DNA from: Gammaproteobacteria bacterium
Lineage (GTDB): Bacteria; Pseudomonadota; Gammaproteobacteria; Steroidobacterales; JABDKV01
DNA: 64,000 nucleotides
Assembly: GCA_013003425.1 (NCBI GenBank)
Contig: JABDJB010000056.1
Location: forward strand, 124,001 to 188,000
Direction of reading: 5' to 3'
Part shown: positions 24,535 through 29,056 of the stretch, piece by piece
How the letters are laid out: each line of letters begins with the position of its first letter
Numbering within the stretch: the first letter of the stretch is position 1
Notes under the pieces: generated by a model
What the model was told of the DNA's origin: nothing
What the model saw: the letters and a program-made list of their open reading frames with translations, nothing else
Database searches by the model: none
Program-made: the position numbers and the translations under genes

Positions 24535-26700
24535 ATGGGCGCAATCACGTCAGGGAAATACAGGGCAATCGTCATATCGATTGCGCTGTTTATTGTCTTT
24601 GACGCTGGTGTGCTCATCATGAACTTCTATATCGCGAACCAGTTCGCTCGCGATGCCACAGAAGTAAACCTGGCGGGCCGCCAGCGCACCCTGTCACAGC
24701 GCCTGCTGAAGGCCTTGCTGCAGACCGACAATGCCCTTGGCAGCGGCAACTATATTGACGTTCCGCTCAATGAGCTGAAATCCAGTTTCCGCCTGTTCGA
24801 CGACACGCTCAATGCCTTCAACAAGGGCGGCGAGGTGATGGGTGTCGATGGGGATCCGGTGCTGGTGGAGGCTCTGGACGATCCATATGCCCGCCGCATG
24901 CTGACCGAGACTATCGAGCAGTGGTTGCCGTTGCGCGAGGCGCTGCAGCCGATGCTCGCTTTCGACGCGAAGATCGATCGCAGCGCTGAACTGATCATGA
25001 CCGATGCAGGCGCCGAGCTGGAAGGCGACCTGTTTCACGCCATCATGGTCGCCACTGCCGAGGGCCGCGATACGCGGCTGCACGAGCTGACCAACGGACT
25101 GACGGTTCACATGGAGTATGAATCGACCCGCCGTGCCGCACGACTGCGCATCATTCAGGTGACCGGTATATGCCTGGCACTGATCAACTTCTTTGTCATC
25201 CTGTTCCATTTTATCCGTAACCTGAACAAGTATGACGCGATGATCGAGCAGGCCAGGAAAGAGACTGGCGAGATACTCGAGACAGTCAACGAGGGGCTCT
25301 TTCTGCTCGATTCAGAATACCGCATTGGTACTCAGCATTCGGCTGCGTTGAGTGGAATATTCCGTCGCGACAATCTGGGCGGGGTCAACCTGATTGAGTT
25401 GTTGCGCGGTATCGTGCCGGAGACAACGCTCAATGTTGCCCGTGATTACATCAGCCTGTTCTTTGGCAAGCGCGTCAACCAGGCCCTGGTTGACGACCTG
25501 AACCCGCTGAATGAGGTTGAGGTTCATTTTGGCGGCGACAGCAGCATGTTCCAGACCCGCTATCTCGGTTTCGAATTCCGCCGCGTGCTGGTCGACGACC
25601 AGTTGTCGCACCTGCTGGTGACTGTCAATGACATTACCGAAAAGGTGGCGCTGGAGCGCGAACTGCAGGAATCACGAGCGCGGTCGTCCGCGCAGCTGGA
25701 TATGCTCATGGACATCCTGCATATCGAGCCGGAAATGCTTACAGATTTCCTGTGCGGCTCTGAGCGGTCATTGGGCAAGATCAACTCGATTCTGCGGCGC
25801 CCGGCCAAGGGTATCGAAGTCTACAAGGCCAAGCTTGACCAGATTTTCCGCGAAGTACATACGGTCAAAGGCGAGGCCGCGGCGCTGGGCCTCAACTCCG
25901 TGGAGATTCATGCTCACGAGCTGGAGGACCTTATTGCCGAAATCCAGGAGCGGCCGTCGATTCGCGGCAGCGACTTCCTGCCGCTCACCATCAAGCTGGA
26001 CGAGGTGCTGGGGCATATCCAGTCGGTGCGCGAGCTGGTGGCGCGGCTGATAGATTTCCGCACCGCTTTTGACCGCAGCAGCATTGCCCAGGTAGACGAT
26101 GACCAGCGCTCGGCACCGCGCACCGACATGTCGGCGCTCATGCACAATCTCGCCGAACGTATCGCCGACGAGCAGGGCAAGCGCGTCAACCTGCACTGTG
26201 TCGGCCTCGAGGGGCGGCACGTACCGGAAGCCTACCGCGGTCCGTTAAAGGACATGGCCCTGCAGTTCATTCGCAACGGCGTAACCCATGGTATCGAGCC
26301 TCCAGGGGAGCGCAACGAGGCCAACAAGGGACAGGTTGGGCGTATAGCCATGAAGTTCATGCCGCTCAATGGTACCGGGTTCGAATTTTCCTACCGCGAT
26401 GACGGGCGCGGGCTGGATCTCGATCTCATTCGGCGTACCGCAGTCGAGAAAGGCTTTGTCACCGCCGACCAGATTGACACGATGGAAGAGCGGGCGGTAA
26501 TGGCGCTTATTTTCCAGCGCGGTTTTTCGACTTGCGAACAGGTCAGCACAGATGCTGGCCGGGGCGTAGGCATGGACGTTATCCGCAATCTCGTCAATGA
26601 GCTCAATGGCAAGGTCAGGGTATCGACCGCGCGAGGTGAGTTCACCCAGTTCAAGATCACGTTGCCGGCAATACCGAGCGACATGGACCAGGCGGCATGA
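24535..26700 (+). CDS. Membrane-bound CheA-like histidine kinase (PilJ-type sensor, PAS, Hpt, HATPase)
   Basis: 721 residues. Helix 1 (about 10-32) and helix 2 (about 205-226) flank a periplasmic helical domain opening NLAGRQRTLSQRLLKALL, the type IV pilus/NIT-like sensor motif seen in PilJ and NarX. A PAS domain follows (about 245-355), then an Hpt domain with phospho-histidine about residue 442 in VHTVKGEAAALGL, as in CheA P1. The ATPase is CheA-like: IRNGVTHGIEPPGER, DDGRGLDLD, GRGVGMDVIRN. It ends there: no P2 and no CheW-binding P5 domain. So it looks like a CheA that carries its own membrane sensor. ATG 24535 has GGGAG upstream. Confidence 0.85.
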   Translation: MGAITSGKYRAIVISIALFIVFDAGVLIMNFYIANQFARDATEVNLAGRQRTLSQRLLKALLQTDNALGSGNYIDVPLNELKSSFRLFDDTLNAFNKGGEVMGVDGDPVLVEALDDPYARRMLTETIEQWLPLREALQPMLAFDAKIDRSAELIMTDAGAELEGDLFHAIMVATAEGRDTRLHELTNGLTVHMEYESTRRAARLRIIQVTGICLALINFFVILFHFIRNLNKYDAMIEQARKETGEILETVNEGLFLLDSEYRIGTQHSAALSGIFRRDNLGGVNLIELLRGIVPETTLNVARDYISLFFGKRVNQALVDDLNPLNEVEVHFGGDSSMFQTRYLGFEFRRVLVDDQLSHLLVTVNDITEKVALERELQESRARSSAQLDMLMDILHIEPEMLTDFLCGSERSLGKINSILRRPAKGIEVYKAKLDQIFREVHTVKGEAAALGLNSVEIHAHELEDLIAEIQERPSIRGSDFLPLTIKLDEVLGHIQSVRELVARLIDFRTAFDRSSIAQVDDDQRSAPRTDMSALMHNLAERIADEQGKRVNLHCVGLEGRHVPEAYRGPLKDMALQFIRNGVTHGIEPPGERNEANKGQVGRIAMKFMPLNGTGFEFSYRDDGRGLDLDLIRRTAVEKGFVTADQIDTMEERAVMALIFQRGFSTCEQVSTDAGRGVGMDVIRNLVNELNGKVRVSTARGEFTQFKITLPAIPSDMDQAA

Positions 26701-26737
26701 AAAGCCGCGCGTTTACTGCAGCCGAAAGGTGAAAATC

Positions 26738-27109
26738 ATGAAACTCATGATCGTGGATGACTCCAATATCATCCGGAGAAAGATAGAGCGCTCCACCGAG
26801 GTCGACGGCCTTGAGGTGGTAGCTACCGCAAGCAACGGCGTCGAGGCGCTCGAGCAGTTCCCCAAGGTGTGCCCGGACATCGTCACGATGGACCTGACCA
26901 TGCCGGAAATGGGTGGCATCGAATGCGTCGAGCGGATGGTAGAGATAGATCCGAATGTCATCATCCTGGTGATCTCGGCACTGTCAGACAAAGCCACCGC
27001 CATCGAAGCACTCAAGAAGGGAGCCAACGGGTTCCTGTGCAAGCCTTTCACGGAAGAAGAGCTGAATCGCGCTTTCCGCGAGCTGCTGGAGGAAGCGAAT
27101 TATGGATAA
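26738..27109 (+). CDS. CheY-like single-domain response regulator
   Basis: 123-residue stand-alone receiver. Acidic pocket in MIVDDSN, phospho-acceptor Asp52 in IVTMDLTMPEMGG, conserved Ser/Thr in VISALSD and lysine in CKPFT. There is no output domain, so it works by protein contact, as CheY does. It is 37 bases downstream of the kinase and overlaps the CheX-like gene by eight bases, so it is the obvious phosphate acceptor of that kinase. The start is the ATG at 26738, preceded by GAAAGGTG. Confidence 0.9.
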   Translation: MKLMIVDDSNIIRRKIERSTEVDGLEVVATASNGVEALEQFPKVCPDIVTMDLTMPEMGGIECVERMVEIDPNVIILVISALSDKATAIEALKKGANGFLCKPFTEEELNRAFRELLEEANYG

Positions 27110-27548
27110 GCAGGACCTGCAGGTCTTTATCGAGGGTGCCACCTCGTTCTTCAGTCATATGGGTGGCGAGCAGGCGCAGATCGGTACTCCCTACCTGGCC
27201 AGCAACACCAACAATGAGGTGAAGGGTTTTACCGGCATTATTGGTGTGACCGGCAAACGCAGGGGCTCGGTCTATTTCACGGCACCACCGGTGCTGCTGA
27301 AGGTACTGCTGATGACCCTGGGTGAAGAAAACACCGATCACGAGAACATGTGCGACATGGTCGGCGAGGTGGCCAACGTCATTTCGGGAAATGCTCGCAA
27401 AGAATTTGGTCACGAGTTCCTGATATCGGTGCCGATCGTGGTGGTCGGCAGGCTCGACAGGATTGTCGTGCCACCCGAGCTGCGCTCATTCGTCGTACCC
27501 ATCACCTGGAAAAACTACGACGCATCGCTGGTCATAGCGCTCGAGTGA
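27102..27548 (+). CDS. CheX-like phosphatase/chemotaxis family protein
   Basis: 148 residues. Carries the CheC/CheX/FliY helix with the phosphatase residues: DMVGEVANVISGNAR (Glu and Asn spaced as in the E-x2-N signature), in the middle of an alpha/beta fold. CheX proteins hydrolyse the aspartyl-phosphate of CheY. Gene overlap with the CheY-like regulator by eight bases strongly suggests that it resets that regulator. There are no CheW, MCP, CheR or CheB genes nearby. The family call is by motif; remote relatives without phosphatase activity also exist. Confidence 0.83.
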   Translation: MDKQDLQVFIEGATSFFSHMGGEQAQIGTPYLASNTNNEVKGFTGIIGVTGKRRGSVYFTAPPVLLKVLLMTLGEENTDHENMCDMVGEVANVISGNARKEFGHEFLISVPIVVVGRLDRIVVPPELRSFVVPITWKNYDASLVIALE

Positions 27549-27568
27549 TACCACCCGGGTTTTGCTGA

Positions 27569-29056
27569 ATGAGCAACGCGGTTTCACAACAACTAACCGG
27601 GCCCATTCCATTCGCACCCGTGCGCTTGTGGCGGGCTGGTGGCAGGCAGCGCGCGGCGGTGCAGGCATGGCTGCTGGTTTGTGCAGTGACAATTCCCGGC
27701 GGATTGCTGACGCGCATCTTCGAGTGGACCGGGCTGGCGGTCGAACTTGGTGGCACCACGGTGCATCTGACCGTATACCTGCCATTACTGGTTTGCGTGC
27801 CATTGGTGCTGTGGTGTGGCTTCCTGTGGGCCGCCATACCGGCCTATTTTTCGACGCTCCTGGTGGCAATAGCCGGCGGCATGTCTTTGCCATGGCTGCT
27901 GGTGTTCCCGCTGGCAAATCCGCTCGGCCTGGCCATGTTTGCGCTGCTTTACCGGGTGTCGAATGCAAATTCCCGCATGCGCGATGGCGCGTCAGTTGCC
28001 GGTTTCGCGGGGGTTGCCCTGGTCGCCTCACTGGCAGGATCGGCCGGGGCATTCGTCTGGGTTTATTCAAACCGGATTGGCGCCGATGTTGCCTACCCGG
28101 TCTGGCAGGGCTGGTGGCTCGGCGGCTGGCTGCAGGCAGTACTGATCAGCCTGCCGACCCTGTACCTGCTTAGTCCCGCCGTGGAGCGCTGGCTGGCACC
28201 ATTGAAGCCGGCTCGCGAAATCAGCCGGCGTGATCTCAGCCATCGGCTGCTGCCGGCAATTGCTTCTGCGGTTGTGGTGTTGATGACCTATGTTTTTGCT
28301 GCAAGGCTGTTCAGCCTGCGGAAATTTAACGCTGCGGCGCAACGAATCAGTGACGATGAGATAGTCAACGAGTTGCTCAATTCCATTGACGCGCTGACCT
28401 ATCCCTTGTTCATTCTTGCCGCCGCGCTGGTCGCAGTCGGTTTTCTCGGTTACCGCGCCGCGATGTTCTGGAACCGCTCGCTGATGGATGCCAACGAATT
28501 ACTGGCTGCCCGCAACTCGGAGCTTGCGCGAATGGCCGAAACGGATGTTTTGACGCGCGTATACAGCCGGCGCAAGGCCATGGAAGTGCTGCACCTGGAA
28601 TTCGAGCGGGCGCGGCGTACCGAAACGGACTTCAGCGTGATGATGATCGATGCCGATTATTTCAAGCGAATCAACGATGAACATGGCCACCTGGTGGGTG
28701 ACGAGGTAATCAGCGCCCTGGCTCAACGGCTGGCCGAAGCGCTGCGCGAGTACGATGTACTCGGCCGCTATGGTGGCGAGGAATTCATCGCCATCCTGCC
28801 GCAAGCCAGTCACGACGATGCGCAGCACATCGCCGAGAGGGTACGCGCTGCTGTAGCTGAAGACCCTGTTGCGACAGCAGCCGAGCCGTTGCCGGTGACC
28901 GTCAGTATTGGCTTTGCGACGATCAACGACGCCGATGCAAATGAGAACTTTGTGCTCGATCGCGCCGACCTGGCGTTGCTGGCAGCAAAACGCGCGGGCC
29001 GGAATCGTGTCGCCTCCGGGCGCACGGTGCCTGCGCGGCCCAGGGTTACCGCCTGA
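27569..29056 (+). CDS. Membrane diguanylate cyclase (MASE1-like sensor, GGDEF)
   Basis: 495 residues. The N-terminal 290 residues hold about seven to eight hydrophobic helices, resembling the MASE1 sensor region (SLPWLLVFPLANPLGL, then ANSRMRDGASVAGFAG). A C-terminal GGDEF domain begins at DVLTRVYSRRKAME and has the active-site loop RYGGEEF. The allosteric inhibitory RxxD is present as REYD at the right distance before it, so feedback control by cyclic di-GMP is expected. It starts 20 bases after the CheX-like gene, so it is probably the output, or a partner, of the same signalling operon. There is no EAL domain. Confidence 0.88.
   Translation: MSNAVSQQLTGPIPFAPVRLWRAGGRQRAAVQAWLLVCAVTIPGGLLTRIFEWTGLAVELGGTTVHLTVYLPLLVCVPLVLWCGFLWAAIPAYFSTLLVAIAGGMSLPWLLVFPLANPLGLAMFALLYRVSNANSRMRDGASVAGFAGVALVASLAGSAGAFVWVYSNRIGADVAYPVWQGWWLGGWLQAVLISLPTLYLLSPAVERWLAPLKPAREISRRDLSHRLLPAIASAVVVLMTYVFAARLFSLRKFNAAAQRISDDEIVNELLNSIDALTYPLFILAAALVAVGFLGYRAAMFWNRSLMDANELLAARNSELARMAETDVLTRVYSRRKAMEVLHLEFERARRTETDFSVMMIDADYFKRINDEHGHLVGDEVISALAQRLAEALREYDVLGRYGGEEFIAILPQASHDDAQHIAERVRAAVAEDPVATAAEPLPVTVSIGFATINDADANENFVLDRADLALLAAKRAGRNRVASGRTVPARPRVTA

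Follow-up and report, generated by a model that had tools for sequence, protein, structure and literature searches.

By the standard account, every chemosensory system contains receptors, CheA, CheW and CheY. The locus studied here, part of a 64,000-nucleotide stretch of a gammaproteobacterial contig (hereafter the window), encodes a CheA-type kinase with its own membrane sensor, followed by CheY, CheX and GGDEF genes, and thus raises the question of what kind of signaling unit these genes form and on what it acts. An earlier note, based on the letters of the DNA, had proposed a one-piece, receptor-fused phosphorelay of four genes, with an output through cyclic di-GMP or a CheY partner rather than a flagellar array.

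Layout of the locus and its kinase

The features of the locus are the following:

24535..26700, + strand: P5-less receptor-fused CheA-type kinase, 721 aa (Pfam, structure matches, model), laid out as TM1, PilJ-type periplasmic bundle (with the N-box-like VNLAGRQRTLSQ), TM2, PAS, coiled coil, Hpt (His442), linker and P4 ATPase
26738..27109, + strand: single-domain CheY, 123 aa, with the acid pair, phospho-acceptor Asp, Ser and Lys all present (Pfam)
27102..27548, + strand: predicted CheX-type CheY phosphatase, active-site motif D-x3-E-x2-N...P (Pfam)
27569..29056, + strand: predicted membrane GGDEF diguanylate cyclase, with GGEEF and an RxxD inhibitory site (Pfam, sequence)

Open reading frames and Pfam both agree with the four genes as first described, including the overlap of cheX with cheY (8 nt in the window ORFs) and the REYD of the GGDEF protein, which is intact, as is its GGEEF. 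The GGDEF gene follows cheX on the same strand after a gap of 20 nt, from which we consider it probably cotranscribed with the kinase, CheY and CheX genes (the triad). Promoter and terminator scans at the locus gave signals not above those of shuffled sequences. The triad adjoins a housekeeping gene in this bacterium, and the locus itself contains no gene for CheW, a receptor, CheR or CheB, which bears out the earlier description.

Pfam matched PilJ (residues 33-137, E 4.7e-9), Hpt (400-472, 5.7e-9) and HATPase_c (574-712, 2e-10) in the kinase, and Response_reg (6.3e-28), CheX (1.9e-18) and GGDEF (4.5e-44) in the three proteins encoded behind it. Among solved structures, the ATPase is closest in sequence to CheA P4 (T. 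maritima, E 5e-26), and CheA P4 structures also rank high by fold (Foldseek, TMt about 0.8-0.88); the nearest solved structures of the CheY are of the T. maritima type. The PAS domain has no Pfam match, but an AlphaFold model built for residues 243-508 shows a PAS-like topology, and Foldseek matches this model mainly to PAS/LOV structures. The proposed composition of the kinase (PilJ-type sensor, PAS, Hpt and CheA-type ATPase) is thus recovered in full. So is its end before any CheW-binding domain: the Pfam search found neither a CheW domain nor an H-kinase_dim match, and the stop codon lies 9 residues past the P4 ATPase, leaving no room for P5.

In the AlphaFold model of the full-length kinase, of moderate confidence (pLDDT 77) and low pTM (0.33), two membrane helices flank a helical bundle in the periplasm; PAS, a coiled coil and Hpt come next, then a disordered segment (511-530) and finally P4. 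No P3 dimerization domain was recognized. For the lack of a P3-like element we rely on Pfam, whose H-kinase_dim model has low sensitivity (PMC10782961), on the variable linker and, since the full-length pTM is low, on a weak model.

The published N-box of nitrate-binding PilJ domains reads [IVL]-[ND]-x-A-G-x-Q-R-M-L-[ST]-Q (PMC6381276). The segment VNLAGRQRTLSQ of the kinase fits 11 of these 12 positions, with T in place of M; with the M position left free, the N-box appeared in 0 of 2000 shuffles of the window kinase N-terminus. The exact N-box is present in 12 of 88 homologues and has been lost in Steroidobacter-type members. We also asked whether nitrate respiration might back up a nitrate-sensing role, and rejected this: the genome to which the window belongs (95.5% complete) has no narG match, and napA matched only below the cut-off.

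Conservation and distribution of kinase, CheY and CheX

A scan of relatives' genome contigs with the PAS-Hpt part of the kinase matched 146 relatives, and the best 80 loci were kept. Within this set, CheY lies directly behind the kinase in 78/80 loci and CheX follows in 77/80, in the same order and on the same strand; the exceptions are all cut short by the end of a contig. The four closest relatives (G001-G004), whose kinases are 73-84% identical to that of the window, likewise carry CheY and CheX behind the kinase, and class-wide and order scans added 14 further copies of the three genes, one of them with a split kinase. The kinase family occurs in 12 of 369 genomes of the class-wide sample, where most copies have CheY and CheX behind them and none has GGDEF. 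The spread is scattered over Gamma- and Betaproteobacteria, the named hosts including Steroidobacter, Peristeroidobacter, Aromatoleum toluclasticum, Reinekea and Cellvibrionaceae. Viral contigs, scanned with the kinase and with its G027 homologue, and plasmids, searched by tblastn, yielded no match.

The GGDEF gene does not share this pattern. Directly behind cheX, it was found only in the window's own genome and in G002, both of the same genus; in G001, G003 and G004 the next recognizable gene is purD, and among the best 80 of 146 loci GGDEF is directly downstream once, in L053, on a contig equal in length to that of G002. Because CheY and CheX follow the kinase across loci while GGDEF does not, the unit consists of three genes, kinase, CheY and CheX, and the GGDEF gene is a local neighbor. 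The predicted co-conservation therefore holds for three of the four genes, and we rejected GGDEF as an integral fourth member. GGDEF is absent behind cheX in three of the four close relatives and present there in just one of the wider loci, so cyclic di-GMP is likewise not supported as a general output.

Genes behind cheX vary across the wider family; a cluster of downstream genes spanning 55 loci is partly an artifact of ORF calling in GC-rich DNA. In Steroidobacter-type loci (L057, L058, L059, L061-L068, L080), a protein of about 500-660 aa is encoded directly behind cheX; its N-terminus resembles a receiver, most versions have a single predicted membrane helix, and two of the three tested carry a TonB_C domain at the C-terminus. 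This protein is a possible lineage-specific output; a TonB_C protein as the general output was rejected because other loci lack it.

Several loci depart from the simple arrangement. L199 (5742-13431) holds a tandem pair of kinase-CheY-CheX units, one of them with two CheX genes, and in L200 (6539-8706) the kinase is spread over two reading frames (477 + 233 aa), through a frameshift or as a two-part kinase. Short sensorless paralogues with a CheA-type ATPase (L183-L189, 484-545 aa) have no adjoining CheY or CheX, and two long kinase copies (L202 and L204) also stand alone, which suggests that the kinase can work apart from the triad as well.

Across 88 triads, the residues expected for catalysis are almost completely retained. 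The Hpt His, the P4 residues N581, H585, D622 and D623 and the P4 glycines, the DD-D-S-K set of CheY and the D and E of CheX are invariant (88/88), and R580 and the N and P of CheX are each conserved in 87/88. Pairwise distances of the three proteins over the same triads correlate at 0.927-0.949, against 0.24 for the best of 500 label permutations. This correlation, which partly reflects the shared descent of neighboring genes, shows that the three proteins travel together, not that they bind. The tail past the ATPase measures 0-26 aa in all complete kinases, and P5 is present in none of the 88 triads. Conserved as a unit and never carrying P5, the three genes look like the receptor-fused CheA-type phosphorelay that had been predicted.

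In a tree of P4 domains, the triad kinases stand outside the single clade (100/98) in which the P5-bearing CheAs sampled from these genomes group. Since the tree is unrooted and several of its end branches are long, we claim only that the triad kinases are not recent truncations of local CheAs.

Candidate outputs in this genome and its relatives

A cyclic di-GMP output, in which CheY or CheY~P would bind and switch the adjacent membrane cyclase and CheX would reset it, is doubtful as an account of the system, although the cyclase is a plausible CheY target in this genus. The short same-strand gap, the intact GGEEF and RxxD sites and the identical arrangement in G002 argue for it, and pdcABC of Burkholderia thailandensis offers a tested precedent: there, a response regulator, a CheC/CheX-type phosphatase and a GGDEF enzyme likewise share one operon; PdcC, when phosphorylated, inhibits the cyclase PdcA, and the CheC/CheX-type PdcB relieves the inhibition (PMC9899790). 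This precedent makes the cyclic di-GMP reading plausible for the genus, though not for the family. The description of pdcABC names no operon kinase, and PdcA is bound at its PAS domain, a domain that Pfam did not detect in the window GGDEF protein. Moreover, the GGDEF gene is no conserved member here, being absent behind cheX in three close relatives, where purD comes next, and missing from the other loci read.

In the genome of the window (95.5% complete, 115 contigs), CheW domains occur at three sites, which all belong to one Pil-Chp-like cluster. This cluster encodes two receivers, a CheW, a 675-aa MCP, a 1679-aa CheA that combines four Hpt domains with CheW and a receiver, and another CheW. 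The genome has no other MCP and no other CheW-bearing CheA, and a kinase search of five genomes of the same family returned only the triad kinase and a protein of ChpA size. The triad kinase might have no pathway of its own and be a CheA, decayed or having exchanged partners, with its signal going into Pil-Chp (PilG/PilH). The PilJ-type sensor and the intact Pil-Chp cluster would fit such a role, but we regard it as very improbable: the kinase has its own CheY and CheX, strictly linked to it over divergent hosts, it has kept all catalytic residues, and its P4 falls outside the clade of P5-bearing CheAs.

The same genome has FliM (by Pfam) and a flagellar cluster (from ORF reading). In Pseudomonas-type flagellar clusters, cheY-cheZ-cheA-cheB...cheW normally lie between fliA and the DUF2802 gene. 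Here the DUF2802 gene comes immediately after fliA, and the interval holds no che gene (contig C10, L134:17268-18604). A sodium:solute symporter gene lies on the opposite strand within the flagellar cluster (L135:8488-10251). No CheZ was found in the 95.5% complete genome, and the window CheX is the only CheX found in it. The triad could have replaced a lost array system in this lineage, with CheY~P as a direct ligand of the motor switch. Across the order, FliM is present in 49/58 near-complete triad genomes versus 68/146 others (Fisher p 4e-7), an association that is suggestive only, because most triad genomes belong to one family, which confounds it, and nine of the near-complete ones have no FliM match. 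Three relatives (G027, G039 and G049) have a classical-size CheA alongside the triad, and the completeness and fragmentation of the window's own genome weigh on what appears to be missing from it. We think the motor less likely than not as the output; it is a plausible CheY target in this genome. The earlier contrast with a flagellar array stands as far as the array goes, but the motor as a target stays a candidate given FliM and a flagellar cluster without classical che genes. A wider version, in which a receptor-fused, array-free CheA took over the flagellar motor (or pili) in lineages whose classical che genes were lost, seems to us less likely still; if it were true, one membrane kinase with CheY and CheX would provide chemotaxis-type control without CheW, methylation or a receptor array.

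A stand-alone relay and its relation to known systems

Neither the GGDEF enzyme nor the motor covers the whole family, and the genes behind cheX differ; we therefore favor, with good though not full confidence, a stand-alone, receptor-fused, three-protein relay of the chemotaxis type whose CheY~P acts on a partner encoded elsewhere. The PilJ-type periplasmic bundle and the cytoplasmic PAS would sense the signal. The kinase would dimerize, presumably through these same two parts, since no P3 is recognizable. Its CheA-type ATPase would phosphorylate His442 in the kinase's own Hpt, from which the phosphoryl group would pass to the acceptor Asp of CheY (residue 52). CheX would strip it off again and so keep the signal short-lived, and the output would consist of CheY~P binding its partner. 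We infer phosphotransfer, dephosphorylation and dimerization from the CheA, CheY and CheX families and from the conserved residues. Nothing in the locus fixes the output, which may vary from one lineage to another.

We found no description of the triad in the literature searched, most subscription papers lying outside that search. That a CheA-type kinase is conserved together with a sensor, a CheY and a CheX of its own would mean that the CheA-CheY-CheX reaction set exists also as an ordinary stand-alone relay. The triad also constitutes a small system for direct tests of array-free CheA catalysis and, possibly, of array-free motor control.

Of the known systems, the PilJ/NIT-type nitrate sensors (McpN, NarX, NarQ) have the PilJ domain in common with the triad kinase, which is of a different kinase type. 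The CheX-CheY pairs of Thermotoga and Borrelia belong to the same CheX family and carry the same motif, and the triad CheY is nearest to the T. maritima type among solved structures; unlike those pairs, the triad locus comes without receptors, CheW or a P5-bearing CheA. With the array CheAs (F, Tfp and ACF classes), the triad kinase shares the Hpt, the CheA-type P4 ATPase and the CheY and CheX/CheC partners, but it has no P5 and no detected P3, has its sensor built in and stands apart in the P4 tree. In a survey of 13,673 CheAs, the CheW domain was present in 100% (PMC10782961), which places the triad type of kinase outside the surveyed set.
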